Positions 10,695 through 27,552 of a stretch of 64,000 nucleotides of DNA are shown here, in pieces (positions within the stretch are counted from its first letter, which is position 1; every line of letters begins with the position of its first letter). The stretch comes from Sphingopyxis bauzanensis. Lineage in GTDB: Bacteria > Pseudomonadota > Alphaproteobacteria > Sphingomonadales > Sphingomonadaceae. A program made the position numbers and the translations under genes. The notes beneath the pieces are model-generated. The model saw only the letters and a program-made list of their open reading frames with translations. It had not been told where the DNA came from and did not search any database. The stretch lies in NCBI RefSeq assembly GCF_002205675.1, contig NZ_NISK01000001.1, forward strand, positions 243,054-307,053. Direction: 5' to 3'.

Positions 10695-10706
10695 ATGCTG
10701 CGTGGC

Positions 10707-13396: not shown

Positions 13397-13401
13397 CCGT
13401 A

Positions 13402-14469
13402 TTACCCCAACCCGCGCGCGATCAGCGGCCCGATCCTGTTCGCCGCCCACAGCGGCAGCTTTTTCCACAGATTGACCTGCAGCCGATATTTGGCGCTGTT
13501 CGGATTGGTGTCCCGCGGCGTTTCGCCCGGCGCGAGCCAGCGCGCATAGACGAGCGGCTGCGGCTCGAATCCCCAGTTCTTCTTGTAGCTGAAGGGTCCG
13601 GTCCCAACCTTCGACCGGCCGAAATCGAACCGCGTACAGCCCTTGGCCCGCGCATGGCGCATCAGCGCGAAATACATCAGTTCGTTGGCGCGCAGCCGCC
13701 GTGCATCGGCAATTCCGCCGCCCCAAAAGGGCATCACCGTGCCGCGCCAATAGAGGCTGAGCACGCTTGCGACGGGGCGCCCGTCCTGCCGCACGGTCAA
13801 AATATCGGCATCGTCGCCGAACGCATCGAGCACCGCATCGAACAGCTTTTTGGGAAACACCGGCGTCCCGAGATTGCGAACGCTGGTGGCATAGGTGCGG
13901 TAATGGTCGCGCCGCTCACCGGCGTCGCGCCCGGTTGTCACGGTCAATCCGCTCTCCAGAACCTTGCGCACCTCGGCGCGCTGCTTGCGCGGGATCGCGA
14001 GCAGTTCAGCATCGTCGTCGCTGGCGAGGTCGCGCGCAAAGCCAGCATAAACCCCCTCTTCGCGGTGCCAGCCGTCGCCATCGGGCTGCGGACCGCCGCG
14101 CAGTTCGACCGACGGCACCCCGAGCGATTGCGCCATCGCCGCCGCACCCTCGGCCACCTTCGCCGCAACTGCCGGATCATTGGCAAGGATACCGCCACCC
14201 ACCGCAAACCCGCTGCCGACCAGCGCATGCCCGAACAGCGGCGAGCGGACATGGTGGAGCGGCAACAGCCCGGTCAATGTTCCCCCCGCATCGCGCGCGG
14301 TGACCAGATGGCAGACATGTCCCGTCGCCTTGGTGATCGCCTCGCACCACGCCCGGCTGTGGAAGGGCGTCGCGTGAGGATGCACCGCAGCATAGGCATC
14401 CCACGCCGCCGCATCGGACAACGGCGCGCCGGAAAAGCCATCCTTCACCGGACGGATCGGCGCATTCAC
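13402..14469 (-). CDS. FemAB-like protein of the XrtA system
   Basis: The 355-residue protein has a double-GNAT (FemAB) fold: PFHSRAWCEAITKATGH near 30-46, RKQRAEVRK in the linker near 170-180, and ELMYFALMRHARAKG with FDFGRSKVGTGPFSYKKNWG in the second half. FemAB proteins transfer aminoacyl or acyl groups; this subgroup is tied to exosortase A loci. The start was chosen at the GTG at 14469, giving a 4-base GTGA overlap with the deacetylase stop; further upstream the frame only shadows that gene. The acceptor is unknown, possibly the polysaccharide or a peptide cross-bridge. Confidence 0.87.
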   Translation of the reverse strand: MNAPIRPVKDGFSGAPLSDAAAWDAYAAVHPHATPFHSRAWCEAITKATGHVCHLVTARDAGGTLTGLLPLHHVRSPLFGHALVGSGFAVGGGILANDPAVAAKVAEGAAAMAQSLGVPSVELRGGPQPDGDGWHREEGVYAGFARDLASDDDAELLAIPRKQRAEVRKVLESGLTVTTGRDAGERRDHYRTYATSVRNLGTPVFPKKLFDAVLDAFGDDADILTVRQDGRPVASVLSLYWRGTVMPFWGGGIADARRLRANELMYFALMRHARAKGCTRFDFGRSKVGTGPFSYKKNWGFEPQPLVYARWLAPGETPRDTNPNSAKYRLQVNLWKKLPLWAANRIGPLIARGLG

Positions 14470-15326
14470 GCCGCCGCGCGCCACGGCGCAGCGCGCTGCT
14501 GCTGCGCGGGGAGCAACGCGTCGGCGCGCGTCCAGTCGAAATCGGCGAGCAGTTTCTTCAGCTTGCCAGCCATAGCCGACAAGCCGCTGTAATGCCGAAT
14601 TTTCGATTTGATCGGTGCATCGGTAACGCGCGGCTGGCCAGGGTCGATTTCCCACGGGTGGAAATAGAGGATCGCAGGATGCCCCTCTTCATTCATCCGC
14701 GCGATCGCCCAGCGGGTGAAGCCATAAGGCAGCATCCGCATGAAGCCCCCGCCGCCCGCCGCGAGCGTGCGCCCGGCAAAGCGCGCGGTCGTCACCGGCC
14801 ATTCGACCAGTTCGCTATCGGGCAGCGGCCGCCAGGCATGGCGCGGGCTCTGCGGCCAGCCATAATGGTCGTGGACGACCGGCGCGACGCTCGACGAATA
14901 GGCATAGCCCTGTTCGGCGAGCACCTGATGAGCCCACGGGGTGCGCTGGTCGACCGAGAAACTTGGCGCGCGATAACCGCGCACCGCAACGCCGCCCAGA
15001 TCCTCGAGGATCGCCTGTGTTTTCTGAAGGTCGGCAGCAAATTCGTCCGCGGTCATGTTGAACACGCGTTCGTGGTCATAACCATGGCTCGCGAGCTCAT
15101 GCCCCGCCGCCACAATCCGCTTGATCAGCGCCGGATAACGCTCGGCGACCCAGCCCAATGTGAAGAACGTCCCCTTCGTCTCCGCGTCGGCGAAAATCTG
15201 CAGCACCGCGTCGCAATTCGCCTCGACCCGGCACTCGAGCGTCGGCCAGTCGGCACGGTGGATCGTGCGCTCAAAGGCGCCGACCTGGAACCAGTCTTCG
15301 ACATCGACAGACAGGCCGTTCTGCAT
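14466..15326 (-). CDS. XrtA-associated polysaccharide deacetylase
   Basis: The 286-residue protein is a NodB-homology (carbohydrate esterase 4) deacetylase. It starts with the family SVDVEDWF motif (Asp8/Asp11), followed by the zinc-binding SHGYDH (His81, His85) and RGYRAPSFS. FHPWEID near the C-terminus supplies the late catalytic His. It has no signal peptide, so it probably acts on cytoplasmic lipid-linked intermediates. N-deacetylation of hexosamine would create sites for later modification. It overlaps the FemAB-like gene by 4 bases. Confidence 0.92.
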   Translation of the reverse strand: MQNGLSVDVEDWFQVGAFERTIHRADWPTLECRVEANCDAVLQIFADAETKGTFFTLGWVAERYPALIKRIVAAGHELASHGYDHERVFNMTADEFAADLQKTQAILEDLGGVAVRGYRAPSFSVDQRTPWAHQVLAEQGYAYSSSVAPVVHDHYGWPQSPRHAWRPLPDSELVEWPVTTARFAGRTLAAGGGGFMRMLPYGFTRWAIARMNEEGHPAILYFHPWEIDPGQPRVTDAPIKSKIRHYSGLSAMAGKLKKLLADFDWTRADALLPAQQQRAAPWRAAA

Positions 15327-15371
15327 CGTTTCTCACCTTCATCGACCGGATAGCCGATTTCGCGTCCGCTG

Positions 15372-16592
15372 TCAGGCCGCCCAGGTCCGCGAGGTCGCCG
15401 GATTGGGTGCATTCTCAGGATCGCGCTCGACCCACTCGATCAGCAGGTCGAGCACGCGGCGCAACGCGGCATCCTGTTCGACCAGCCGCGTTTCAAGCGA
15501 AGCAATCTGGGCTTCGAGCGCCGCCAGCTGCTCGGGATCGATCGCCGCCACAGCCGGGGCCGCTTCGGGCGTCAGCTCCAGCACGTCAGTCTCAGGCCGC
15601 GTCGGCGCAGGCTCCGCAAAGGGCGGACGTCCGTCGGCAGCACGTTGCGGCCATTCGAGCGCGGTTTCATTCGTTGCGGTCGGCACCGCAAAGGGCGCAG
15701 GGGTCGGCGCCACCGCAGCGGCAGCTGCCGCCACGACCTCCTCGACCGGCAACGGCGCCAGCGTGGACGCGTCGATGCCGCGGTCGGCCTCGATCTCTGC
15801 GACCACCGAACGCACATTCTGCGCCGTGATGCGCGTCATCTGCTCGACCGCCCCGTACAGCAGCAGGCGGCTTACCAGCACGTTCAGCTTGCGCGGCACG
15901 CCCTCGCTATAATCGAAAATTTCCTCGAACGCGTCGGGGCTGAAGCTCGGGTTGCCCGTCCAGCCGACCTTGCCCAGCCGGTGCAGGATATAGGGTTCGA
16001 CTTCCTCGGGCTCCATCGGATCAAGGTGATGCGTCGCGATCACCCGCTGGCGCAATTGCTCCAGCGTCGGCGAATGAAACAACGTCTGGCGAAACTCGGG
16101 CTGGCCGAGCAGGAAAATCTGGAGCAGCGAATGCCCGCCGAGCTGAAAATTCGACAGCATCCGCAGCTCTTCGAGCGCCGAGATCGCAAGATTCTGCCCC
16201 TCGTCGACGATCAGCAGCGTGCGCTTGCCGGCGCGCGCCTGCTCGCGCAGATATTGCTCCATCGACCGCAGCAACTCGGCCTTGCTCTGCCCTTCCCACT
16301 CGATCCCGAACTGTTCGGCGACCAGGCGGAGGAGGTCGTCGCCCTCGACCTGCGTCGACACCAGCTTGACCGCGGTAAGGCGACTGGGGTCGATGGTGTT
16401 CATCAGATGGCCGACCAGCGTCGTCTTGCCCGCGCCGACATCGCCAGTGATGACGATAAAGCCCTCACCCTGCGCGAGGCCGTAGCCAAGGTAAGACATC
16501 GCCTTACGGTGCGTGCTGCTTTCGAAATAGAAATGCGGGTCTGGCGTCAGTTGGAACGGACGCCCGGAGAAACCATAGAACTGATCGTACAT
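15372..16592 (-). CDS. XrtA-associated AAA ATPase (ExeA-like)
   Basis: The 406-residue ATPase has Walker A GDVGAGKTT at 50-58, Walker B LLIVDEGQNL near 121-130, and an AAA lid (GVPRKLNVLVSRLLL) near 240. The start at 16592 gives the canonical family N-terminus MYDQFYGFSGRPF. The C-terminal 150 residues are Ala/Pro-rich, then end in a predicted coiled coil (LAALEAQIASLETRLVEQDA, about 365-385). ExeA/GspA-like ATPases help assemble export structures. It sits between the outer-membrane barrel gene and the deacetylase. Confidence 0.92.
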   Translation of the reverse strand: MYDQFYGFSGRPFQLTPDPHFYFESSTHRKAMSYLGYGLAQGEGFIVITGDVGAGKTTLVGHLMNTIDPSRLTAVKLVSTQVEGDDLLRLVAEQFGIEWEGQSKAELLRSMEQYLREQARAGKRTLLIVDEGQNLAISALEELRMLSNFQLGGHSLLQIFLLGQPEFRQTLFHSPTLEQLRQRVIATHHLDPMEPEEVEPYILHRLGKVGWTGNPSFSPDAFEEIFDYSEGVPRKLNVLVSRLLLYGAVEQMTRITAQNVRSVVAEIEADRGIDASTLAPLPVEEVVAAAAAAVAPTPAPFAVPTATNETALEWPQRAADGRPPFAEPAPTRPETDVLELTPEAAPAVAAIDPEQLAALEAQIASLETRLVEQDAALRRVLDLLIEWVERDPENAPNPATSRTWAA

Positions 16593-16614
16593 CGCTAATA
16601 TTCCCGTTGCTTGG

Positions 16615-18324
16615 TCAGAAGTTGTAACGCAGTCCCACCAAAGCTGAACCAATAAGCTGGCTGTTAAAGCCGTCCTGATCAAAGGCGTTAAGGCTGGCCG
16701 CCGCAGTTCCGGTCAGTCCGCGCCAGAAGCGCCGCGCGTATGCCGCCGACAGCCCCGCCGACTGGACGTCGCTCGCGCCCGGCGCGCCATTGTCGAAATA
16801 GTTGAGATACCCGGTCAGGCTGATGTCCGAATCGACGTCGAGCTGGCGCCCCGCCGACAGGAAGAGATAATAGCTCTCGTCCTTGATCCCGTTCAGGTTC
16901 GCGACCGGCGACAGCAACGGCGCGAGCAGCTTGCGCTGGTCATAGCCGATCCCGACGCCATAACTCCACCCGGCGTAGCGCGAGGCGATCGTCGCCTGCA
17001 CGCCGCGGCTGCGATATTGCGCCGACGTTGCATTGCCGAGCTGGTTGTTCAGGCATCCGCCGCCCTGCTGGCCGAACACGCACGGATTGATCGTCCCGCC
17101 GATCGGGTTGCGCGTTGGGTCGAACTGGGTTGGCAACGCAGCAAGTCCACCCGACAGGCCGCGGCCCAGACTCGACAGTCCGTCATAAACGCCGACCTGA
17201 ACCGTCGTCGCATGGTCGGCGCGATAGGAGAAGCTGCCGGTATAAATGGTGTCGCCATAACGGCGGCCGACGCGCGCGGTCGCCGACGTGCGGCGGCTGG
17301 GCTGCCACATCACCCCGGCGTCCCAGATCAGGCCGTCGGTATCGAACGACAGCTGGCGCGGGGTCGATTTGTCGGTGATGAAGCGACCGTTCGCATCGCG
17401 CACCGGTACGCCGCCCGCATCAACGAGCGGATTGCGCTGGCCGATTTCGATGTCCTCATAACCGACGCCGCCCAGCAGCGCGACAGTCGGCCCGATCGGC
17501 AGCGTCACATCGGCGCGGGCATATTTGCCCTCGAAACGCTGGTCGAGCTGGCTGGCATCCTCACGTTCATAGCCGCCCGATACCTGCCACCCGAACGGCA
17601 GGTCGCCGGGACGCGCGCCGACGCTGGCCCACGCAACATGGTTGGTCGAGCTGTCGAAAATATCCTGCGGCTGGCTGCCCGGCGCCAGGATCGCGGGTGT
17701 ATCGACATCGACCTTGGTATAGCCAAAGCGATAGCCGGCCCCAACATCGAGCCCGCCGATGCGGCGCGCCAAGGTCGGCCCGGCATAGACCGAGTAGAGG
17801 TTCGCGACATTGCTCGCGTTGCCGATGAACAATCCACTGTCGGCGCCCTGCCCGTCAGCGCGGGTCCGCGTGGCGAGTGCGCCGCCCTCGAGATTGAGAC
17901 CGCGCGCAACCTCGATCCGGCCGCGGGCGAGGCCGCTGATCGTATCAGAATCGCTCAGGCCGCCGCCCCAGCCAAAGCGGTGTTCATAGCGCAGCGTTGC
18001 TGCCAGTTCGGCGCGCGTCGTCACGATCGCGGCATCGATGCCGACCGCGACATTGGTATAGGTCAGGACGTCGCCGCCGTTTCTCAGGTCGGCGGTCAGC
18101 ACCTGACCGACCTCGAGATAAGGGCTGACATCGACTTGCCGCTGGTTACGGCGGCCCTCGGCGCGCTTCGCTGCGCGGCCGGGTTCCGCCGGGGCGCTCG
18201 TCGGCGCGTCGCTGGCGCCGGAAGCGGGATCTCCCGAAAATTGCGCCTGGGCGCCCGTGGCGGTCCCTGCCAGCAGCAGCGCCGCCAGCGCGCTCGCGTG
18301 GCGCAGGGCGATGGGGGTGCGCAT
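16615..18324 (-). CDS. XrtA-associated outer-membrane beta-barrel protein
   Basis: The 569-residue protein has a signal peptide (residues 1-27, ending AQA before Q28), a short Ala/Pro-rich linker, then repeated amphipathic strands typical of a large outer-membrane barrel, ending LVGLRYNF with terminal Phe. It matches the uncharacterised barrel family of exosortase A exopolysaccharide loci and may be the outer-membrane channel or an anchor. One loop has CVFGQQGGGC, a likely disulfide. Its ATG overlaps the kinase stop by one base (TGATG), showing coupling. Confidence 0.87.
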   Translation of the reverse strand: MRTPIALRHASALAALLLAGTATGAQAQFSGDPASGASDAPTSAPAEPGRAAKRAEGRRNQRQVDVSPYLEVGQVLTADLRNGGDVLTYTNVAVGIDAAIVTTRAELAATLRYEHRFGWGGGLSDSDTISGLARGRIEVARGLNLEGGALATRTRADGQGADSGLFIGNASNVANLYSVYAGPTLARRIGGLDVGAGYRFGYTKVDVDTPAILAPGSQPQDIFDSSTNHVAWASVGARPGDLPFGWQVSGGYEREDASQLDQRFEGKYARADVTLPIGPTVALLGGVGYEDIEIGQRNPLVDAGGVPVRDANGRFITDKSTPRQLSFDTDGLIWDAGVMWQPSRRTSATARVGRRYGDTIYTGSFSYRADHATTVQVGVYDGLSSLGRGLSGGLAALPTQFDPTRNPIGGTINPCVFGQQGGGCLNNQLGNATSAQYRSRGVQATIASRYAGWSYGVGIGYDQRKLLAPLLSPVANLNGIKDESYYLFLSAGRQLDVDSDISLTGYLNYFDNGAPGASDVQSAGLSAAYARRFWRGLTGTAAASLNAFDQDGFNSQLIGSALVGLRYNF

Positions 18325-19346
18325 CACGCACCTCCCTGTCCGTAATAGGTGCCGAATCGGCGGCCGCCTGGCGAGAATTTCACGCCGTTGAGAAGCAGCT
18401 GAATATGCGGACACGCGCCCATCAGGCCGATCGCGTCGCGCAGCGCGGATTCCAATGTTTCGTCGGCGCGCACGACCATGATCGTCTGGCCGACATGCCC
18501 CGCCAGCACTGCGGCGGGCGACGCCGCCAGCACTGGCGGCGAATCGATGATCAGGATGCGGCCCGGGACGCCCTGTTCGAGCTGCGCCAGCAACGCATCG
18601 GTGCGCGCCGACGCGAGCAGTTCGGTGTCGTGCATATGCCCGGTCCCCGCGGGCATGACCTTCAGCCCCGGAATGTCGGTCTGGATCAGGCAGTCGCCCA
18701 GCGGCAAATGCGCATCGGCGAGCGCGTCCATCAGCCCCGGACCATCCTCCAGCCCCAAGGCTTCGAGCACGCTCGGCTTGGCAATGTCGGCGTCGATCAG
18801 CAGCACGTCATGGTCGGCCTCGACCGCCAGGCTGAGCGCGAGGTTGACCGCGGAGAAGGTCTTGCCTTCGCCCGGGTTCGCTGACGCGATCAGTACGCGG
18901 TGGCCGCGCGGCAGGATCGGGCGATTGCCGACGCCACCGAAATTGCGGATCAGCTCGCGCTTCACGATGCGATATTCTTCCGAAATGCCCGTGACCGGGG
19001 TACCCGGCACGATCATCCCGCGCGCCGCAAGGCGCTCGCGGTCGATCGTCCCCTGCCGCGCCGGCACGATCGCGGGCGCCGCCTTGGCGATCTCCTTGCG
19101 CGGCGAAGGCTTGGGCGCCGGCACCGTTTCGACCGTCGGTGCGGCCTCGGCAACGGGAGGGGCGCTTTCGGGCGGTAGAACTTCGGCGACGGGTTCCGCC
19201 TTGACCTTCTTCGCCCTTTTCGGCGCTTCCGGCGGCAGGCTCGACACGTCGATCGTCGGCGCATTGGCGGCGGGATCGAGGCCGAACATATCGGCTGCGC
19301 GTTCGAGGATCGAGGGCGGGCGCTTGACTTTGCGTTGGTCGTTCAT
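18324..19346 (-). CDS. XrtA-associated tyrosine autokinase (BY-kinase)
   Basis: The 340-residue protein is a cytoplasmic bacterial tyrosine kinase that partners the chain-length protein and controls polymer length by autophosphorylation cycles. A Pro/Ala/Lys-rich linker (about 35-100) precedes the kinase domain: Walker A ANPGEGKT at 156-163, Walker A' LLIDADIAKP at 182-191, and IIDSPPVL near 268. The C-terminus RRFGTYYGQGG has only two tyrosines, a minimal Tyr cluster. The ATG at 19346 has a GGGGGA ribosome site; a GTG at 19364 overlapping the previous stop by 4 bases is the alternative. Confidence 0.9.
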   Translation of the reverse strand: MNDQRKVKRPPSILERAADMFGLDPAANAPTIDVSSLPPEAPKRAKKVKAEPVAEVLPPESAPPVAEAAPTVETVPAPKPSPRKEIAKAAPAIVPARQGTIDRERLAARGMIVPGTPVTGISEEYRIVKRELIRNFGGVGNRPILPRGHRVLIASANPGEGKTFSAVNLALSLAVEADHDVLLIDADIAKPSVLEALGLEDGPGLMDALADAHLPLGDCLIQTDIPGLKVMPAGTGHMHDTELLASARTDALLAQLEQGVPGRILIIDSPPVLAASPAAVLAGHVGQTIMVVRADETLESALRDAIGLMGACPHIQLLLNGVKFSPGGRRFGTYYGQGGA

Positions 19347-19360
19347 GTCATCGTCCCCCG

Positions 19361-20905
19361 TCACGCAACCATGCCGCGCTGGATGAATTCGGCGACCAGC
19401 AGCAAGGCGTAGAGGCCGACCAACGCCCCGCCGCCGCTTGCCAGCCAGACCAGCTTCTTGCGCCGTTCGACATGGCGTTCGGGGGTCACCACTTCGGTGA
19501 TCGAACCGATCACCGGCAATCCGCTGGCACGCTCCAGCTTAGCCGCGGTGGCATAGCTGGTGCGGACCTGGGCGAGGCCAAAGGCCGCGGCGACGCCGCC
19601 GCCAATTCCCGCGAGCAGCACCAGGGTCAGGAACAACGGCCGATTGGGTGCCGCAGGGCTGGTCGGCTTCGTCGGCGGATCGAGCAGTTCGATCTTGATC
19701 GCGTCGGTTTCGGTCTGCACGTCGCCGCGCATCCGCACCTGTTCGCGCTGGCCCAGCAGCTTGTCATATTGTGCCTTGAACGCGGTATATTCGCCGTTGA
19801 TCCGGTCATATTCGGCGGCGATGCCGGGGTTCTGGATTTGCTGGCTCGTGATGCGCGCGATGTCGCCGGTCAGCTGCGCCTTGCGCGCGTTGAGTGCGCT
19901 CGCCGTCGCCTGCCGCTCGGCCCGCATCGCGGCGAGCGAGGCATAGGCTGGGTTCTGCGAATTGCCGCCGCCGCCGCCCGCGCCTTCGCGGTCGGCCATG
20001 GCTTTCAGCGACGCGATCTGGCTTTTCAACGCGATGACGTCGGGATGCGCGTCGGTCAGCCCGCGCGAACGCATCGACGACAGTTCATTCTGCGCCCCCG
20101 CCAGCTGCTGCCGTGCGACACCGCCGCCGACGCTGCCCATCCCGGGGACGTTGATCGTTGCCGGGGTGGCGGCAAGCTGGCCGTTCGCCGCCGCCAATTG
20201 TGCCTGCGCCGCCACGAGTTGCGAATCGATCTGGCCGAGTTCGGCGCGCGCTGCCTCGACGCGCTGCGCAGGCGATCCGGCGCCGCCGGGGATCAGCCCG
20301 ATATTCTGCGCCTCGAACGCCGCCCGCCGCGCTTCGACTTCGCGCAGCGCCTTTTCGCGGTCGGCGATCTGCGCATCGAGAAATTTCAATCCCTCGCGCG
20401 CATTCATCCGCCCGCCGCGCAGCTGGTCGTCGCGGAACACGGTAATCAGGCTGTCGAGCACGCCCGACGCCAGCTTGGCATTGTCGGCATCCGACAGGCT
20501 ACCGACACCGACGCTCGAGGTAATTTCAAAGATATTGTCCTGCTGTGGGATCACCTTGATGCTCTTTTGCAGCATCGCGACCGCGCCGGCTTTCTCGCGC
20601 TCTCCGGCACCCGCAGGCAACAGGCCGGTGGTCGCCGCGACCTTTTCCAGATTGCGCGCGCTGGTCAGCGTTTCGCGGATCTGGTCAATCCGCTGGCGGC
20701 CGCCATAGGCGCCGCCCTGCGGATCGTCGGGCAGGATTTCGTTGATGTCGACGAGCAGCCGCGCGCGCGAGTCATAACGGTTGGGGATCGACGCGATCGC
20801 CAGCCAGCCGAGAATGCAGATGCCCCACGCCACCGCCAGCACGAGCCACCGGCGCGTCCAGACGCTGTGCAGCGCCACCCGGAATTCGTCGTAAAGGCTG
20901 TTCAT
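19361..20905 (-). CDS. XrtA-associated polysaccharide chain-length determinant (Wzz/PCP type)
   Basis: The 514-residue inner-membrane protein has a Wzz-like N-terminal membrane segment (about 18-38), a long periplasmic coiled-coil region (about 150-390, rich in ARAELGQIDSQLVAAQAQL-type heptads), and a second membrane segment near 430-450 after the PTKPTSPAAPNRP proline motif typical of polysaccharide co-polymerases. A third hydrophobic stretch near the C-terminus (about 485-505) is unusual. It sets polymer length with the kinase encoded next. It follows the export lipoprotein gene after 49 bases. Confidence 0.92.
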   Translation of the reverse strand: MNSLYDEFRVALHSVWTRRWLVLAVAWGICILGWLAIASIPNRYDSRARLLVDINEILPDDPQGGAYGGRQRIDQIRETLTSARNLEKVAATTGLLPAGAGEREKAGAVAMLQKSIKVIPQQDNIFEITSSVGVGSLSDADNAKLASGVLDSLITVFRDDQLRGGRMNAREGLKFLDAQIADREKALREVEARRAAFEAQNIGLIPGGAGSPAQRVEAARAELGQIDSQLVAAQAQLAAANGQLAATPATINVPGMGSVGGGVARQQLAGAQNELSSMRSRGLTDAHPDVIALKSQIASLKAMADREGAGGGGGNSQNPAYASLAAMRAERQATASALNARKAQLTGDIARITSQQIQNPGIAAEYDRINGEYTAFKAQYDKLLGQREQVRMRGDVQTETDAIKIELLDPPTKPTSPAAPNRPLFLTLVLLAGIGGGVAAAFGLAQVRTSYATAAKLERASGLPVIGSITEVVTPERHVERRKKLVWLASGGGALVGLYALLLVAEFIQRGMVA

Positions 20906-20954
20906 CGGTTGCGATCAATCCTTGGGAAATGGGTCTATTGGCGGTCGTTCGGGG

Positions 20955-21611
20955 TCAGAACATGCTTTCGGGGATGATGATGACATCGCCGGGCTGCAAC
21001 CGCACATTGGCCTTGATATCGCCGCGCTTGATCAGGTCGTTCAGCCGCAGGCCAAATTCCTGCTGCTTGCCGCTACCCTTGTCGAAACGGACAAGTCGTG
21101 CCTTGTTTCCAGCCGCATATTCGCCCAGCCCGCCGACCGCAATCATTGCGTCGAGCACGGTCATGTTGGCGCGAAACGGAATCGACGCCGGTTTTTCGGT
21201 CGCGCCGACGACGCGCACCTGCTGCGAAAAGGTGCTGTTGAACGTCGTCACGATCACGCTGACGATCGGGTCGGTGATATATTGGCTCAATTGCAGCTTG
21301 ATGTCCTGCTGCAACATCGTCGGCGTCTTGCCGACCGCGGGCATGTCGGTGATCAGCGGGGTGGTGATCCGCCCGTCGGGGCGCACCTGAACCTTGCCGC
21401 CAAGCTCGGGGTTGCGCCACACAAAGATCTGCAGCTCGTCGAGCGGGCCGATGATATATTCTTCGCCCGGCCCCTCCTGATTCTGGACAAAGTTCGCGCT
21501 GGGCAGCTGCGGCGCGCTGCTGCCGCCGCTCGCGCAGCCGGAGAGCGCAGTCGCCGCGATACCGGAAACGAGCGCGGCGCGGGCGACGCGAAGCGAGGGG
21601 AACGAAGCCAT
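20955..21611 (-). CDS. Polysaccharide export outer-membrane lipoprotein (Wza-like)
   Basis: The 218-residue protein has a lipoprotein signal (lipobox LSGC, Cys26) and the poly-export domain: YIIGPLDELQIFVWRNPEL, VRPDGRITTPLI and a SLBB-type beta-grasp domain (VRVVGATEKPASIPF). It matches the family linked to PEP-CTERM/exosortase loci. It would form the outer-membrane ring through which the polymer leaves. The start was set at the ATG at 21611, ten bases after AAAGG; a TTG two codons upstream is a weaker option. It is the first gene of the ten-gene operon. Confidence 0.93.
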   Translation of the reverse strand: MASFPSLRVARAALVSGIAATALSGCASGGSSAPQLPSANFVQNQEGPGEEYIIGPLDELQIFVWRNPELGGKVQVRPDGRITTPLITDMPAVGKTPTMLQQDIKLQLSQYITDPIVSVIVTTFNSTFSQQVRVVGATEKPASIPFRANMTVLDAMIAVGGLGEYAAGNKARLVRFDKGSGKQQEFGLRLNDLIKRGDIKANVRLQPGDVIIIPESMF

Positions 21612-21784
21612 AAACAATCAACCTTTCGTGCCGCGGGCCGCCGCCGCGGCGCAAATCCCCGCGACGACCGTCATTGCGTCAGCTTCCGCTCTTGCGCGAA
21701 AAGGGTGAACATAGAGTTAGTATTGAGATAAGTGTGCCTAGCACATCGGCATAATTGTCCCGTTAAGGAGCAAGTTTTTCCGGG
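21612..21784 (-). promoter_or_regulatory. Probable promoter region of the exopolysaccharide operon
   Basis: This is the only gap above 150 bases inside the exopolysaccharide cluster and is more AT-rich than its surroundings, so the operon promoter probably lies here. It contains a perfect inverted repeat TGTGC-cta-GCACA at 21733-21745, a possible operator. No convincing -35/-10 pair could be assigned by eye. Confidence 0.45.
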
Positions 21785-23014
21785 TCAGATCAGCATTTCG
21801 CGCGCCGAACCCTGCCCCAGGAACGCCGCCGGGCTCGCGCTGGCGCCATAGGCCCCCGCCTGAAAGATCGCGATCAGGTCACCAACGTCGGCGCGCGGCA
21901 GCGCGACCTGATCGCCCAACCGGTCGAGCGGGGTGCAGAGGCAGCCGACGACCGACACTGTTTCGGTCGGGTCGCGGCCAAATGCGTTCGCGACCGCGAT
22001 CGGATAGTTGCGACGGATCACCGTCCCGAAATTGCCGCTCGCCGCGAGCTGGTGATGCAGCCCGCCGTCGGTCACCAGAAACGTCTCGCCATGGCTCGTC
22101 TTGCGATCGACGATACGGGTCAGATACACCCCCGCCTCGGCCACCAGCCAGCGACCGAGTTCCATCGCAAAGCGGCTGTCCGCGAGCACCGGGGGCCGCA
22201 CCGCGAGCGTCTCGCCCAGCGCCGACCCGACCGCCGCGGCATCGACCGCTGTATCGCTGGAAAAATAGGGAACCCCCATCCCGCCGCCCAGATTGACCAG
22301 CGGCGGCGTGGCGCCGATCTCGTCCGCCAGCCGTGCCGCCAGCGCGACCGTCTGGGCCTGCGTATCGGCGATCGCCGCCGCATCAAGTGCCTGCGATCCC
22401 GCGAAAATATGGAAACCCTGCCAATCGGCCCCCGCGGCAATCAGCCGCCGCACCAGCGCCGGAACCTCGGCAGCATCGACGCCGAACGGCTTGGCACCGC
22501 CGCCCATCTTCATCCCCGATCCTTTGAGGTCGAAGTCGGGATTGACCCGCACCGCAAGGCGCGGAGTCACCCCGTTCCTTGCCGCGATCGACAGCGCGCG
22601 CGCCGCTTCGCCCGCCGATTCCAGATTGAGCGTCGCCCCCGCGATAATGGCCGCTTCCAGCTCGCGGTCGCGCTTTCCGGGTCCGGCAAAGCTGACGTGC
22701 GCCGCCGCCATCCCGCTGTCGATCGCCGCCTTCAACTCGCCGCCCGACGCGACATCGAACCCGTCGACCAGCCGCGCCATGAAGGCGAGCAGTGGCGGAT
22801 AGGGGTTCGCCTTCATCGCAAAATGGAGCTGCACTTCGGCGGGCATCGCGGCGCGCCATGCGGCGACCCGTGCGGTCAGCATCGCGCTGTCGTAAACGAA
22901 CAGCGGCGTGTCGCCCGCCATGTCGGTGAGCGTGTCGGCGCGGTCGCCGCCGATCAGCAGCATGCCGTCTTCGTCGGCGGCGAAACCGGGCGGGATCGGA
23001 CCGTGCGGCTTCAT
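21785..23014 (-). CDS. PLP-dependent decarboxylase of the XrtA system
   Basis: The 409-residue protein is a fold-type III PLP enzyme related to diaminopimelate and ornithine decarboxylases. Lys68 in HFAMKANPYPP should bind PLP; FDVASGGE, NLGGGMGVP (phosphate loop), and a C-terminal VVGCLCTPLDRLG block with the catalytic Cys region follow. It fits the decarboxylase family described only from exosortase A loci. The substrate is unknown; an amino acid, perhaps carrier-bound, is likely. It follows the ligase gene after a 126-base gap holding a palindromic repeat. Confidence 0.9.
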   Translation of the reverse strand: MKPHGPIPPGFAADEDGMLLIGGDRADTLTDMAGDTPLFVYDSAMLTARVAAWRAAMPAEVQLHFAMKANPYPPLLAFMARLVDGFDVASGGELKAAIDSGMAAAHVSFAGPGKRDRELEAAIIAGATLNLESAGEAARALSIAARNGVTPRLAVRVNPDFDLKGSGMKMGGGAKPFGVDAAEVPALVRRLIAAGADWQGFHIFAGSQALDAAAIADTQAQTVALAARLADEIGATPPLVNLGGGMGVPYFSSDTAVDAAAVGSALGETLAVRPPVLADSRFAMELGRWLVAEAGVYLTRIVDRKTSHGETFLVTDGGLHHQLAASGNFGTVIRRNYPIAVANAFGRDPTETVSVVGCLCTPLDRLGDQVALPRADVGDLIAIFQAGAYGASASPAAFLGQGSAREMLI

Positions 23015-23052
23015 GCCGCCACTCTCGCGGACGATAAATTGGGCTCCCGGAA

Positions 23053-23136
23053 TCCGTTCGTGTCGAGCGAAGTCGAGACACCCATCGGGGCAGCGCTCGG
23101 TCGATGGGCATCTCGACTTCGCTCGATGCGAACGGA
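23053..23136. repeat. Intergenic palindrome, TTCGTGTCGAGCGAAGTCGAGA family
   Basis: An 84-base inverted repeat running from TCCGTTCG to CGAACGGA, with internal GAGCGAAGTCGAGA and TCTCGACTTCGCTC arms, lies between ligase and decarboxylase genes. The same sequence recurs at 57319-57397, so this is a dispersed REP-like element. Confidence 0.85.
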
Positions 23137-23140
23137 GAAT

Positions 23141-24676
23141 TTAAACATCATGGCACGCCTGCGCCCAATCGGCGGCGATCACCACCCGGTCGAGCTTGCC
23201 ATTCGGATTGCGGGGCAGCGCATCGCGCCATTCGATCGCCTGCGGCTGCATGAAATTTGGCAGGTTCTGGCGCAGATAAACGGCCAGCCCTGCTTCGTCA
23301 GCGCCCCCGCCCTTGCCGCGCACGATCAGCACGATCGCCGCGCCCAGCCGCGCATCGGGTACCCCGAACGCGACGGCTTCAAAAATCAGCCCCGACGCGA
23401 CCGCCACCTCCTCGACCTCGGTCGGGCTCACACGGTTCCCCGCAGTCTTGATCATCGCATCGTCGCGCCCGACAAAATAGAGCAGGTGATTGGCGTCGCG
23501 GCGCACCGTGTCGCCTGACCAAACCGCCATCCCGCCATAGCGCGACACGCGCGGCGCCGGTTTGAACCGATCGGCGGTCCGCTCCGCATCTTGCCAATAG
23601 CCCTGCGCGACCAGCGGCCCGCAATGCACCAGCTCGCCCGGTTCCTCGTCGGCGGTGATCGTCCCGTCGGGGCGGCAAACCAAAATCTCGGCGTGCGGGA
23701 TTGCGCGGCCCATTGATGTCGGATGATCGGCAACGAGTTTCGGCTCCAGATAGGTCGAACGAAACGCCTCGGTCAGCCCGTACATCGGAGTAATCTCCGC
23801 GTTCGGAAAGGTCGCCCTCATCGCGTCGATCAGCGACGGCGTCAGCGCCCCGCCGCTGTTGGTCAGGCGCTTCAGATGTACGGCCGCCTCGGCGGGCCAG
23901 TGGCTCTCGACCAATTGCACCCACAAGGGCGGCACCCCCGCCAGCGTCGTCGCACGGTGCCGCGCTACTGCCTTCACGACGTCACGCGGGGTCAGATAAT
24001 CGAGCGGCGCCACCGCGGTGCCCGCATACCAGGCTGACAGCAGCTGGTTCTGCCCATAATCGAAACTCAGTGGCAGCACTGCGAGCACCCGGTCATCAGG
24101 GACGAGCTTCAGATAGGACGCAACACTCTCGGCCCCCAGCCATAAATTGGCATGGCTCAGCATCACGCCCTTCGGCCGCCCGGTGGAGCCACTGGTGTAG
24201 AGGATCGCCGCCAGATCATCGGGATCGGCAGCCGAGGGCGCCAGTCCCTGCCCCCCCGAATCGATCACTGCCTCGGCGACCTTCAAATCCTGCACCACGC
24301 AATTATCGGGCCGCCCTTCGCCCAGCATATCCTCACGCGCGCCGTTGGTAATCAGCAGCTTCGCCCCGCTATCCGCCAAAATATGCGCAACCTGCGGTCC
24401 CTTGAGCATTGGATTGACGGGCACATGGATCAGCCCCGCGCGCGCCGCCGCCAGCGGCATCAGGCACGCTGCCCTCGTCTTCGCGCTCCAGCTCGCGACC
24501 CGTTCGCCCGGCCCGCCCGCCTGATCCAGCAGCCACGCCGCCAGCCGCGCGACCCCCGTATCCAATTGCGCAAACGTCATGACCCCCTCACCGATCAACA
24601 GCGCAGCCGCCCCCGGCGCGCCGCGCAGGGCGAGATGGTCGATCGGTTGCGAAGTTGGCTTTTCGGCTTTGGTCAT
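23141..24676 (-). CDS. AMP-forming acyl-CoA/acyl-ACP ligase of the XrtA system
   Basis: The 511-residue adenylating enzyme has the ANL-superfamily motifs: A3 ILYTSGSTGRPKGV at about 158-171, A5 MYGLTEAFRST, A7 SGDTVRRD, A8 GRDDAMIKTAGNRVSP and A10 NPNGKLDR with the catalytic Lys. It would activate a carboxylic or amino acid as an adenylate and load it on CoA or on the small carrier protein encoded on the other strand 1 kb away. It matches the ligase family of exosortase A loci. It is divergent from the GNAT gene with only 35 bases between starts. Confidence 0.92.
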   Translation of the reverse strand: MTKAEKPTSQPIDHLALRGAPGAAALLIGEGVMTFAQLDTGVARLAAWLLDQAGGPGERVASWSAKTRAACLMPLAAARAGLIHVPVNPMLKGPQVAHILADSGAKLLITNGAREDMLGEGRPDNCVVQDLKVAEAVIDSGGQGLAPSAADPDDLAAILYTSGSTGRPKGVMLSHANLWLGAESVASYLKLVPDDRVLAVLPLSFDYGQNQLLSAWYAGTAVAPLDYLTPRDVVKAVARHRATTLAGVPPLWVQLVESHWPAEAAVHLKRLTNSGGALTPSLIDAMRATFPNAEITPMYGLTEAFRSTYLEPKLVADHPTSMGRAIPHAEILVCRPDGTITADEEPGELVHCGPLVAQGYWQDAERTADRFKPAPRVSRYGGMAVWSGDTVRRDANHLLYFVGRDDAMIKTAGNRVSPTEVEEVAVASGLIFEAVAFGVPDARLGAAIVLIVRGKGGGADEAGLAVYLRQNLPNFMQPQAIEWRDALPRNPNGKLDRVVIAADWAQACHDV

Positions 24677-24711
24677 CGGCTGTTAGGAGTGAAGTGATAG
24701 AGGGCGACACC
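24677..24711. promoter_or_regulatory. Very short divergent intergenic region
   Basis: Only 35 bases separate the divergent start codons of the ligase and the GNAT-like gene. The plus-strand GAGGG is a ribosome site; no such site is evident for the ligase. Both promoters must overlap the opposing coding sequences. Confidence 0.5.
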
Positions 24712-25707
24712 ATGCAAGGGAACGGTGAACATCACGCTAATGATGAGCGGTTGCCCGCGACAGCGCGCGCGGCGGGCTTCGCGTCGCCCTTCGACCGCGC
24801 GGCGTGGTTCGACCTGCTCGAAGCGTATGGTTTTGCCGGGCAGGGCCGGGTCGACGCGCATGGCCGCGCGGGGGGCGTCACCGCATGGCTGCCGCTGCGG
24901 ATCGAAAGGCCGGGCGAGGTCGCGGGCCTCACCAACTGGTACAGCTTCGCGATCCGCCCGCTCTATACCGGCGACGGTGACCACGAAACCGCCCGGCGCG
25001 CGTTGTCGCAAAATCTCCGCCGCACCGCCGGACGCCTGACGCTCTATCCGGTAAGCGAACCCGACGAGCTCACCGCCGCGCTCCGCGCCGCGGGCTGGTG
25101 GGTCAAAGTCACGCCCGCGGGCGACCGCCACTGGCTCGACCTCGGCGATATGGACCATGACGCTTGGTGGACCAGCCGCCCCGGCGCGCTGCGCAGCACC
25201 GTCCAGCGCAAGGCGAAAAAGGGCATCGTCGATATCCAGCTGCTCATCGCCTTCGACGACGGCAGCTGGGCCGCCTATGAACAGATTTATGCGGCCAGCT
25301 GGAAACCCGAAGAAGGTCACCCCGCGCTGCTCCGCGCCTTTGCCGAGGCCGAGAGCGCGCGCGGCACCTTGCGGATGGGCCTCGCGCGCATCGATGGCAT
25401 CCCCGTCGCGGCGCAGTTTTGGACCGTCGAGGACGGCACTGCCTACATCCACAAGCTTGCGCATGTCGAAGACAGCCTCAAGGCCTCGCCCGGCACCCTG
25501 TTGTCCGCGGCGCTGTTCCGCCATGTGATCGAAGTGGACGGCATCAAACGCATCGATTTCGGCACCGGCAACGACGGTTACAAGCGCGACTGGATGAACC
25601 GCCACGACCCTCTGTGGCGGATCGAGGCTTTCAATCCTTCGCGCCTCGCGGCATGGGGACCGGCACTCAAGGCCTTCGCCCGTTCCCAGCTGAGGAAAGA
25701 ATCGTGA
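24712..25707 (+). CDS. GNAT/FemAB-like acyltransferase of the XrtA module
   Basis: The 331-residue protein has a double-GNAT fold: residues 1-150 are a degenerate N-half and 150-310 carry RSTVQRKAKKG, IPVAAQFWTVEDGTAYIHKLAH and FGTGNDGYKRDWMN, the conserved end of the BioF2-like family. It probably transfers an acyl or aminoacyl group from the carrier protein encoded next. The start at 24712 has GAGGG eight bases upstream; an earlier in-frame start would overlap the ligase. Its stop overlaps the carrier-protein GTG by 4 bases, strong evidence that the two work together. Confidence 0.85.
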   Translation: MQGNGEHHANDERLPATARAAGFASPFDRAAWFDLLEAYGFAGQGRVDAHGRAGGVTAWLPLRIERPGEVAGLTNWYSFAIRPLYTGDGDHETARRALSQNLRRTAGRLTLYPVSEPDELTAALRAAGWWVKVTPAGDRHWLDLGDMDHDAWWTSRPGALRSTVQRKAKKGIVDIQLLIAFDDGSWAAYEQIYAASWKPEEGHPALLRAFAEAESARGTLRMGLARIDGIPVAAQFWTVEDGTAYIHKLAHVEDSLKASPGTLLSAALFRHVIEVDGIKRIDFGTGNDGYKRDWMNRHDPLWRIEAFNPSRLAAWGPALKAFARSQLRKES

Positions 25708-25970
25708 CCGAACCCGATACCGTCGACACCACCCTTCGCGCCCTGCTCGCCGATGTCCTTGGCCTCGGCGAAGACCGCGCCGCGGCGCTGACCGCCGACA
25801 GCGGCCTGTTCGGCGCGCTGCCCGAGTTCGATTCGATGGCAGTCGCGACGGTGCTGACCGAGATGGAAGACCGCCTCGGCATCCTCATTGACGATGACGA
25901 GATTGATGGCGAGATCTTTGAAACCTACGGCAATTTGCTGGCGTTCTCACTACGCAAGATTGGCGAGTGA
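25704..25970 (+). CDS. Acyl carrier protein of the XrtA module
   Basis: This 88-residue acidic protein has the four-helix carrier-protein pattern with Ser44 in EFDSMAVATVL as the phosphopantetheine site, and DRLGILIDDDEIDGEIFETYGNLLAF as helices III-IV. It starts at a GTG that overlaps the GNAT stop (GTGA). It is separate in sequence from the fatty-acid ACP and belongs to the carrier type found in exosortase A loci. It would hold the product of the divergent ligase for transfer by the GNAT protein. Confidence 0.93.
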   Translation: MTEPDTVDTTLRALLADVLGLGEDRAAALTADSGLFGALPEFDSMAVATVLTEMEDRLGILIDDDEIDGEIFETYGNLLAFSLRKIGE

Positions 25971-25995
25971 TCGCCACGATCTACTTCTTATTGCT

Positions 25996-26076
25996 CCCCC
26001 GCGAAGGCGGGGGTCCATCTCCGGCCGGTGCGATTTCGAACCGCAAGGTGATGTGTCCCCGCCTTCGCCGGGGCAC
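25996..26076. repeat. GC-rich intergenic palindrome
   Basis: Two arms, CCCCCGCGAAGGCGGGGGTCC at the left and CCCCGCCTTCGCCGGGGC at the right, are each self-complementary and pair with each other. The element lies in the 122-base gap between the carrier protein and the first hydrolase gene, and is the same class as 8701-8790. Confidence 0.75.
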
Positions 26077-26092
26077 ATGAACGGGCTGAACG

Positions 26093-26767
26093 ATGGCTGA
26101 GCATTGCTTCCGCATCACCCCCACCGGCACCCCGCGCGCCACGATCCTGATCGTCCCGCCGCTATTCGAGGAAGCCAACCGCACGCGTCGCACTTTGGTT
26201 CTCGCCATGCGCGCGCTGGCGGCGGACGGTTTTGCCGCCCTGCTCCCCGATCTCCCCGGCCAGAATGAAAGCCTCGTCCCGCTCGAAACGGTCGATCTTG
26301 CCAGCTGGCAAGACGCGCTCGCCGAAGCAGCCGCGACGATCGACGGCCCGCAGATCATCGCCTCGCTCCGCGGCGGCGCATTGATCGACCACCACCCAAA
26401 AGCCGCCACCTGGTGGCGCCTCGCCCCCGTCGGCGGCGCCTCGCTGCTCCGCACCCTGATGCGCGCGCGCGTCGCCGCCGATCGTGAAGGCGGCGTGACG
26501 TCGTCGCTCGACAGCCTGCAAGCTGAAGCCGCCACGGCGCCACTGCTCCTCGCGGGAAACCGCCTCTCGCCCGCCATGATCGCACAGCTCGGCAGCGCCG
26601 AAACCCAACCCGTCGCCCGGCTCCGCACCGTCACCCTCGGCAGCGGCGCCGACGCCATCGCCGGAACCCCGCTTTGGCTGCGCGCCGAACCCGGCGAGGA
26701 CGCCGCGATGGCCAAAGCTATCGCCGCCGACATCGCCGCATGGAGTACGGCATGCGGCATCAGCTGA
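26093..26767 (+). CDS. Exosortase A system hydrolase 2 (alpha/beta-hydrolase fold)
   Basis: The 224-residue protein matches the second of two small hydrolase families known only from exosortase A loci, seen in TILIVPPLFEEANRTRRT near residue 17 and ALLPDLPGQNES near 50. At the nucleophile elbow it has IIASLRGGAL instead of G-x-S-x-G, so a classical serine nucleophile is not evident. The role may be thioester hydrolysis, a non-catalytic partner, or recognition. It overlaps hydrolase 1 by 16 bases. Confidence 0.8.
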   Translation: MAEHCFRITPTGTPRATILIVPPLFEEANRTRRTLVLAMRALAADGFAALLPDLPGQNESLVPLETVDLASWQDALAEAAATIDGPQIIASLRGGALIDHHPKAATWWRLAPVGGASLLRTLMRARVAADREGGVTSSLDSLQAEAATAPLLLAGNRLSPAMIAQLGSAETQPVARLRTVTLGSGADAIAGTPLWLRAEPGEDAAMAKAIAADIAAWSTACGIS

Positions 26768-27552
26768 CCTTTTCCTGCGAAGGCGCCACTCTCACCGCAA
26801 CGATCGACGACGCACCGGGCACTACCGGCCTGCTCATCGTCTCGGGCGGCAATGAAATCCGCAGCGGCGCGCATCGCGGCATGGCGGCACTGGCGCAGCG
26901 TATCGCCGAAGCCGGTCACCCCGTGTTCCGTTTCGACCGGCGCGGCATCGGCGACAGCGAGGGCATAAATGACGGCTACACCAGCAGCGCTCCCGACATC
27001 GCCGCCGCGGTCGCCGCCTTCCGCCGCGCCGCGCCGCAGCTTATCCGCATCATCGCCTTCGGCAATTGCGACGCCGCCAGCGCACTGCTGCTTCACCAGC
27101 CTCTCGCACTCGACGGCCTGATCCTCGCCAATCCGTGGACTTACGAAAGCGACGACAGCGGCGAAACCGAAGAACCCGCGCTGCCCCCGGCCGCAGCGAT
27201 CCGCGCGCGCTACCTGGCGCGGCTGACCGACCCCGAAAGCCTGCTCCGGCTGCTCAAGGGCGAAATCGATATCAAAAAGCTAGCCCGTGGCCTGTCCGCG
27301 CTGGGGCGCCGCTCCGCTCCCGCCGTGCCCGACAGCCTGTCCGCCCACCTGAATACAGCGCTCGCCACCCTGCCCTGCCCCGCAACGATCCTGCTCGCCA
27401 CCGGTGATCGGACCGCGCAGGCGTTTGTAGAAAATTGCGATCCGGGCGCAGTGCCGGTCGAACGACTGGTCAGCGCCTCGCACAGCTTTGCCGGGGATGA
27501 CGGGGAATGGCTGGTGGCGCGCGTTCTGGCGATTATCCACCCTACCCTTTAG
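26752..27552 (+). CDS. Exosortase A system hydrolase 1 (alpha/beta-hydrolase fold)
   Basis: The 266-residue protein has an alpha/beta-hydrolase fold with the family motif SGGNEIRSGAHRG near 26-38, FRFDRRGIGDSEG near 61-73, and the elbow IIAFGNCDAAS, which puts Cys rather than Ser at the nucleophile position. Late Asp (ATGDRT) and His (SASHSFA) residues complete a possible Cys-Asp-His triad. The start at 26752 has GGAG six bases upstream and overlaps hydrolase 2 by 16 bases. It probably acts on the carrier-bound or CoA-bound intermediate of this module. Confidence 0.85.
   Translation: MRHQLTFSCEGATLTATIDDAPGTTGLLIVSGGNEIRSGAHRGMAALAQRIAEAGHPVFRFDRRGIGDSEGINDGYTSSAPDIAAAVAAFRRAAPQLIRIIAFGNCDAASALLLHQPLALDGLILANPWTYESDDSGETEEPALPPAAAIRARYLARLTDPESLLRLLKGEIDIKKLARGLSALGRRSAPAVPDSLSAHLNTALATLPCPATILLATGDRTAQAFVENCDPGAVPVERLVSASHSFAGDDGEWLVARVLAIIHPTL

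Follow-up and report, generated by a model that had tools for sequence, protein, structure and literature searches.

Amine-bearing acyl groups are placed on an envelope polymer by the Dlt D-alanylation system, which has no decarboxylase. In butirosin biosynthesis, the ligase BtrJ is an ATP-grasp enzyme rather than an adenylating one, and the acceptor is an aminoglycoside. According to the available parts of the respective papers, the decarboxylase BtrK converts glutamyl-S-BtrI to gamma-aminobutyryl (GABA)-S-BtrI (PMC7857480), aspartate loading, decarboxylation on the acyl carrier protein and dehydrogenation have been proposed for the bolagladin proteins BolO-BolC-BolN-BolQ, with beta-alanine giving no rescue of a bolN deletion (PMC7756342), and VinN-VinL-VinO, which supply 3-aminoisobutyrate for vicenistatin, combine an adenylating ligase, a stand-alone carrier and a pyridoxal phosphate (PLP) decarboxylase that acts after loading (PMC11284099). 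Here, we describe six genes in a stretch of 64,000 nucleotides from Sphingopyxis bauzanensis (contig NZ_NISK01000001.1, positions 243,054 to 307,053; the window) that adjoin a polysaccharide locus with exosortase A (XrtA). They encode an adenylating ligase (LIG), a PLP decarboxylase (DEC), a GNAT-like transferase (GNAT), an acyl carrier protein (ACP) and two alpha/beta-hydrolase-fold proteins (HYD1 and HYD2). We think it somewhat probable that they constitute a module for decoration with carrier-borne omega-amino acids.

In the proposed scheme, LIG would adenylate an amino-dicarboxylic acid at its distal carboxyl (L-aspartate being the likeliest, with glutamate or 3-methylaspartate as possible substrates) and load it onto the phosphopantetheine of ACP. 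DEC, as a BtrK/VinO-type enzyme, would strip the alpha-carboxyl on the carrier to give beta-alanyl-S-ACP or a homologue such as the GABA thioester, and the amine-bearing acyl group would then pass to a component of the XrtA-linked polysaccharide. In many sphingomonads, the Fem-like GNAT may carry out this transfer, and HYD1, with its Cys nucleophile, probably takes part together with the nucleophile-less HYD2.

Predicted chemistry of the ligase, carrier and decarboxylase

LIG scored above the TIGR03098 cut-off (632.8 versus 592.35 bits), and the best stand-alone solved enzyme found by its family profile was VinN (302 bits). Linear gramicidin synthetase scored higher in the sum of its two domains (223 + 274 bits), and 8xjz, a peptide synthetase of 1634 residues, reached 412. 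The profile also found DltA (3dhv), of the same adenylating superfamily, so that a preliminary description of the locus went too far in calling its proteins unrelated to those of Dlt. When aligned with linear gramicidin synthetase, the FD motif of LIG (Asp206) sits at the position of amino-acid adenylating domains that presumably binds the amino group. Asp206, Ser/Thr274 and Arg306 were present in 108/108 LIG sequences (Thr for Ser in 13), a tally that, like those of 88 and 84 sequences below, covers the two sets of relatives described in the next section and contains some duplicates (L046/L110, L053/L095 and L050/L153, at least, are pairs from a single genome). Among 11 more distant ligases, Asp and Arg were found in all and Ser/Thr in 10, with Ala in one. 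The spacing of Asp, Ser and Arg is 69/32 in the methylaspartate pocket of VinN and 68/32 in LIG, i.e., equal within one residue. Seven LIG paralogues of the same genome, the next best of the matches there, served as controls; Asp and Arg were absent from all of them and Ser was found in one. On the basis of the pocket residues, the reading of LIG as a generic acyl-CoA ligase was rejected. From the pocket residues, we infer that LIG would activate an amino-dicarboxylate, probably aspartate, at the distal carboxyl, which would place loading before decarboxylation.

The best solved relative of ACP was 2lki (60 bits, E value of 2e-15), labeled in the database as an uncharacterized protein and which we take to be a Nitrosomonas acyl carrier protein. 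The Asp-Ser at Ser44, the serine already proposed as the loading site and found where expected, was invariant in 20 aligned carriers, and the genome gave one match to PF01648 (phosphopantetheinyl transferase).

DEC exceeded the TIGR03099 cut-off (560.7 versus 478.45 bits) and fell below that of LysA (223.4 versus 297.9 bits), lacking both the RPxLY region and CE(S/T)GD, which we take to be the diaminopimelate-binding motifs of LysA. A separate true LysA is encoded in the genome (427.2 bits), and a role of DEC in lysine biosynthesis was rejected on account of this gene and the missing motifs. The best solved relative of DEC was BtrK (230.7 bits, compared to 125.3 for the runner-up), and both show LCTPxD and SPxxFLG-type motifs. 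Lys68, Glu285, Arg288, Cys360, Asp364 and Tyr389, presumably catalytic, were invariant across 18 aligned sequences. By nearest characterized relative and active-site motifs, DEC belongs to the BtrK/VinO type, an assignment made through BtrK. The patterns extended with small departures, as LCT(P/S/T)xD and SPxxF(L/I), to the distant relatives L068 to L082, which also were without the RPxLY region and CE(S/T)GD. In a FastTree phylogeny that omitted ten of the 54 loci from the phylum (L048 to L050, L052, L054, L060, L061, L063, L066 and L067), BtrK nested among DEC relatives, in a clade with the DEC of the window (support of 0.78).

DEC is thus predicted to decarboxylate a carrier-bound aminoacyl substrate. 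Where the preliminary description had allowed for a possible decarboxylation, the kinship to BtrK and the LIG pocket now give a defined prediction, i.e., a reaction on the carrier. The order could be the reverse, with DEC acting on the free amino acid and LIG loading the product, an order known for IdnL3 and IdnL1 of the incednine pathway, where IdnL3 decarboxylates free beta-glutamate (PMC11284099, in the part available). However, the substrate of BtrK, the closest relative of DEC, is carrier bound, and the invariant Arg and Ser/Thr of LIG match the reported alpha-carboxyl site of VinN, which suggests that the ligase recognizes the acid before decarboxylation; we regard decarboxylation first as improbable.

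Other decarboxylase-like genes were also detected. The genome has a third gene of the fold III type, L175 (C22:707443-708453), with 126.6 bits to lysA. Family f38 genomes carry a separate decarboxylase branch, with 280 to 304 bits to TIGR03099 in the five loci L084 to L088 and CTGADK replacing CTPLD; it occurs once per genome in many f38 genomes, with no LIG match nearby.

Co-occurrence and genomic neighborhoods

To place the six genes in a wider context, we used two sets of relatives. The named relatives, the nearest of which are Sphingopyxis, were the best 80 kept, so that close relatives were sampled, and 18 with flanks too short were dropped (n = 62). Within 9 kb of DEC, LIG and ACP were both found in 62/62, HYD1 and HYD2 in 54 each and GNAT in 50. 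The second set was one draw of 398 genomes across the phylum, with counts that ignore shared ancestry. Near its 29 DECs over the cut-off, own genome excluded, we detected LIG in 28 cases, ACP in 28, HYD1 in 25, HYD2 in 21 (a later profile added L047, L058 and L065) and GNAT in 10. Genomes with matches over the cut-off numbered 30 for DEC, 29 for LIG, 35 for XrtA and 26 for HYD1, with DEC and XrtA jointly in 27. All 29 LIG genomes fell inside the 30 with DEC, and the thirtieth (G126) had a LIG of 548.7 bits against the cut-off of 592.35. Of the 27 genomes that combine DEC with XrtA, 26 had HYD1 over its cut-off, as did none other of the 398. A GNAT profile matched in 15 of these 27, in four cases about 15 kb away or on a different contig; the other 11 genomes searched gave no match. 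The six-gene set forms a unit whose grouping exceeds chance. Given the counts across the 398 genomes and the GNAT search, the core LIG-DEC-ACP occurs both with and without exosortase A, HYD1 is confined to genomes that combine this core with XrtA, and GNAT is an accessory present in part of them.

These numbers bear on the most conservative explanation, i.e., that LIG is an ordinary acyl-CoA ligase and DEC a diaminopimelate-type decarboxylase, both of which merely adjoin exopolysaccharide genes. The NCBI name of LIG ("acyl-CoA ligase") and the distant homology of DEC to LysA are in line with it. However, a carrier lies nearby in every one of the 62 loci (drawn from the best 80 relatives), the true LysA is elsewhere in the genome and DEC is without its motifs, and the amino-acid pocket is missing from the seven acyl-CoA-ligase-like relatives, making simple adjacency extremely improbable.

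In the window, LIG and DEC share the direction of the XrtA polysaccharide genes and lie immediately upstream of them, while GNAT-ACP-HYD2-HYD1 diverge across a short gap. NCBIfam models identified genes for export, chain length, a tyrosine autokinase, an outer-membrane protein, an ATPase, a deacetylase, FemAB, a glycosyltransferase, exosortase A with an EpsI domain and an amidotransferase, the matches of the outer-membrane protein and the autokinase being below family cut-offs. Comparable neighborhoods exist elsewhere. In L044, LIG-DEC-ACP are followed by a GT2 glycosyltransferase, a polysaccharide deacetylase and an O-antigen-polymerase (Wzy) match below the cut-off, and the genome gave no XrtA match at an E value of 1e-45. 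The more distant relatives L069 and L079 adjoin chain-length and kinase homologues, L079 also an export homologue, and neither genome had an XrtA match at the same threshold. Because of these three polysaccharide-type neighborhoods without XrtA, the link to polysaccharide is independent of exosortase A.

Instead of a polysaccharide substituent, the same carrier chemistry might produce a lipid or a small secreted molecule, or it might modify a protein. Several kin outside XrtA loci adjoin genes typical of natural-product pathways: L070 has the E chain of methylaspartate mutase between DEC and LIG, a carrier-like open reading frame (ORF) nearby and Ala at the Ser274 position of its ligase, while the DEC of L080 runs on into an acyl-CoA dehydrogenase domain (Pfam) and L081 has a DEC ORF of similar size. 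By analogy, L070 would follow the vicenistatin recipe and L080/L081 that of bolagladin. Inspection by eye revealed carrier-like ORFs at L068, L070, L071, L075, L077, L078, L079 and L080, and not clearly at the remaining seven of L068 to L082. Against such a product stand the shared direction of LIG, DEC and the export genes, the tracking of XrtA plus DEC by HYD1, and L044, a polysaccharide-type locus without XrtA; we consider it unlikely for the locus of the window. The genomic context speaks strongly for a link to polysaccharide, if one that is unproven, and the activation, loading, decarboxylation and transfer set that had been tied to the XrtA locus is supported.

Some neighborhoods had further particularities. 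A sphingomonad (L050/G155) carries DEC-LIG-ACP beside the ATPase and deacetylase of an XrtA locus and has 16 PEP-CTERM matches, but neither XrtA nor HYD1 was matched at the thresholds applied; the system may have decayed or changed there. In L041 (9316-12471), an asparagine-synthase-like amidotransferase is the next ORF on the same strand after DEC, a hint that an amidotransferase may join the pathway. Outside sphingomonads, acyltransferase and tetratricopeptide-repeat (TPR) neighbors were seen.

In the literature, a transposon screen of Sphingomonas LM7 traced a cell-associated polysaccharide to a second locus, which includes an exosortase-associated amidotransferase and genes whose names suggest the synthesis or modification of amino sugars (PMC11340318, in the part available). 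The main text of the 2006 PEP-CTERM paper, as far as available, has no word starting with decarboxylase, ligase, acyl or hydrolase (PMC1569441). Among the papers listed, we found none linking the exosortase families to BtrK/VinN chemistry, judging mostly from titles and abstract openings.

The association with exosortase A also allows a more specific idea, namely, that the module makes the amine for the enzyme, a beta-alanyl-type group on nascent polysaccharide, with its flexible primary amine, acting as the nucleophile that joins cleaved PEP-CTERM proteins. Fem-built bridges serve sortase in like manner, and surface proteins would then be covalently tied to slime. Eight XrtA genomes without DEC argue against this idea, which we hold to be very improbable. 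PEP-CTERM counts, available for 31 of 38 genomes, ranged from 0 to 38 (median of 5.5) in 20 genomes with DEC and XrtA and from 1 to 14 (median of 9) in the eight with XrtA only. They were no higher with the module, and we discarded it as a correlate of the number of PEP-CTERM cargo proteins.

Transfer candidates and gene layout

The AlphaFold2 model of GNAT (mean predicted local distance difference test [pLDDT] score of 90.4) has a tandem-GNAT fold. Foldseek matched it to Sba18 (E value of 5.6e-13) and then to FemX and MprF/A-PGS, with template-modeling (TM) scores (query) of about 0.5 to 0.6, ranking aminoacyl-tRNA-dependent peptide synthases, FemX, MprF and A-PGS before acetyltransferases. 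A sequence search retrieved no solved relative. In Alteraurantiacibacter aquimixticola (one genome, present twice in our sets), GNAT and the carrier form a single reading frame. Judging from the model, GNAT looks like an aminoacyltransferase, and its early assignment as a transferase gains from this fusion and from the nearest solved folds; we propose ACP, not tRNA, as its donor. The FemAB protein of the XrtA locus (TIGR03019) was rejected as the module's own transferase, since it tracks XrtA and not DEC: it was over the cut-off in 27/27 genomes that have both DEC and XrtA as well as in six of the eight with XrtA only (the remaining two being just below), with no match at an E value of 1e-20 in the three DEC-only genomes. 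Other proteins with an Acetyltransf_6 domain (PF13480) were a second one of the window, at the end of the XrtA locus (7468-8652, minus strand; BspF match well below the cut-off), and an ORF of 924 amino acids in L075 (5720-8494), with the domain near its end, adjoining DEC-LIG-carrier outside an XrtA locus.

HYD1 exceeded the TIGR03100 cut-off (209 versus 168.45 bits), while HYD2 was below that of TIGR03101 (51.7 versus 202.75 bits), its kinship being assigned via position, fold and elbow Arg. The nucleophile position of HYD1 was Cys in 88/88 sequences, with Asp223 and His248 each in 86/88 (two gapped rows each), a putative Cys-Asp-His triad. In HYD2, it was Arg in 84/84, and the model (pLDDT of 94.6) places Arg93 at the junction of a strand (87-92) and a helix (93-98). 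Neither protein has the Ser nucleophile of a serine alpha/beta hydrolase, and the two are fused as one protein in L065.

The preliminary description had assigned both proteins to proofreading. As editing thioesterases, they would clear misloaded carrier, in accordance with alpha/beta-hydrolase folds that adjoin the carrier and with Foldseek matches of the HYD2 model to such folds, including the thioesterases 3lcr and 9cel. However, serine-esterase proofreading is unlikely because of the invariant Cys of HYD1 and the Arg of HYD2. In addition, the three genomes that have DEC but not XrtA (L044, L045 and L050) lack both genes at the locus and gave no HYD1 match at an E value of 1e-25, although they would need editing too. 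Editing seems to us a rather doubtful role. Cys nucleophiles that favor acyl transfer over hydrolysis are known from other enzymes, and for this reason acyl transfer by HYD1, together with HYD2, is suggested.

Several points weigh against the decoration module as proposed. Support for the clade of DEC and BtrK is moderate, and a node with a support of 0.907 joins BtrK to seven relatives from outside XrtA loci, to which it is closer than to the XrtA group. The match between the LIG and VinN pockets comes from spacing and from alignment to another adenylation domain, not from a VinN alignment or structure. XrtA occurs without DEC over the cut-off in 8 of 35 genomes and DEC without XrtA in 3, and GNAT is missing from 12 of the 27 genomes with both. 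Fem/MprF-type enzymes with known donors use aminoacyl-tRNA. The scheme also goes beyond what was directly established (the gene set, its co-occurrence, family relations, active-site residues, predicted folds and two natural fusions), as we infer the substrate, the decarboxylation on the carrier, the roles of GNAT, HYD1 and HYD2, the acceptor and the linkage. Lastly, the hits of the LM7 screen, in the part of the paper available, include no decarboxylase, carrier or such ligase, the gene content of LM7 itself not having been checked (PMC11340318).

The positions of all features are given in Table 1; the six genes, their strands and the divergent gap agree with those initially described. GTGA at 25704-25707 contains both the GNAT stop and the ACP start, as had been noted, and among 69 GNAT-ACP junctions in relatives, 13 show an in-frame stop-start overlap of four bases. 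The GNAT start is an ATG picked within a longer ORF, and HYD1, if begun at the ATG at 26740, starts within HYD2. Two intergenic inverted repeats were detected. The one in the DEC-LIG gap (23053-23136) has arms of 35 nucleotides (nt) with 89% complementarity and could influence transcript processing between both genes. The other (38 nt, 25996-26073), located between ACP and HYD2, is a dispersed palindromic element; a piece of 22 bases has 10 copies in the genome at no more than 2 mismatches, compared to 0 for the reversed control.

Table 1. Features of the module and its surroundings (positions in the window)
Feature	Positions	Strand	Details
DEC, BtrK-like PLP decarboxylase (TIGR03099)	21785..23014	-	409 aa; Lys68 22811-22813, Cys360 21935-21937
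DEC-LIG gap	23015..23140		35-nt inverted repeat inside, arms 23053-23087 and 23102-23136
LIG, adenylating ligase (TIGR03098)	23141..24676	-	511 aa; Asp206 24059-24061, Ser274 23855-23857, Arg306 23759-23761
LIG/GNAT divergent gap	24677..24711		35 bases
GNAT, PF13480, predicted Fem/MprF-type aminoacyltransferase fold	24712..25707	+	Pfam, AlphaFold2, Foldseek
ACP, stand-alone carrier protein (PF00550)	25704..25970	+	Phosphopantetheine Ser44 25833-25835
ACP-HYD2 gap	25971..26092		38-nt inverted repeat of dispersed element
HYD2, alpha/beta-hydrolase fold without usual nucleophile	26093..26767	+	Elbow Arg93 26369-26371
HYD1 (TIGR03100)	26740..27552	+	Cys110 27067-27069, Asp223 27406-27408, His248 27481-27483
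XrtA polysaccharide locus	8799..21617	- (same direction as LIG-DEC)	NCBIfam

Comparison with known systems

TIGR03098, TIGR03099, TIGR03100 and TIGR03101 are "hypoth_equivalog" families with association names and no chemistry beyond enzyme class. As originally described, the proteins are known by their association with exosortase A: four match NCBI families without assigned chemistry, HYD2 far below the cut-off. If the proposed scheme is true, the roles of these families become testable with a handful of purified proteins, and the two former "hydrolases", with Cys in one and Arg in the other, would become a candidate for a new type of acyltransferase.

The Dlt system is alike in its adenylating ligase, DltA, which is homologous to LIG, and in its carrier; a match to DltB or DltD was shown for none of the 20 locus proteins scanned. 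If Gram-negative polymers were decorated with carrier-made beta-amino acids, this would parallel D-alanylation and add positive charge. The butirosin pair BtrI-BtrK resembles the locus in its decarboxylase, the nearest solved relative of DEC, which acts on the glutamyl-carrier. The bolagladin system differs in feeding a peptide synthetase and in its dehydrogenase, no such enzyme being among the 20 proteins scanned. The VinN-VinL-VinO set is alike in its stand-alone ACP, in its ligase, which belongs to the superfamily of LIG and by spacing shares the Asp/Ser/Arg pattern, and in its PLP decarboxylase acting after loading. However, unlike the starter system of this macrolactam, the set in the window adjoins polysaccharide export genes, and no polyketide synthase or second adenylation enzyme was shown among the same 20 proteins. 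Taken together, the kind of chemistry is known from antibiotic pathways, whereas its deployment beside polysaccharide genes, together with a Cys/Arg pair of hydrolase-fold proteins, appears to be new.

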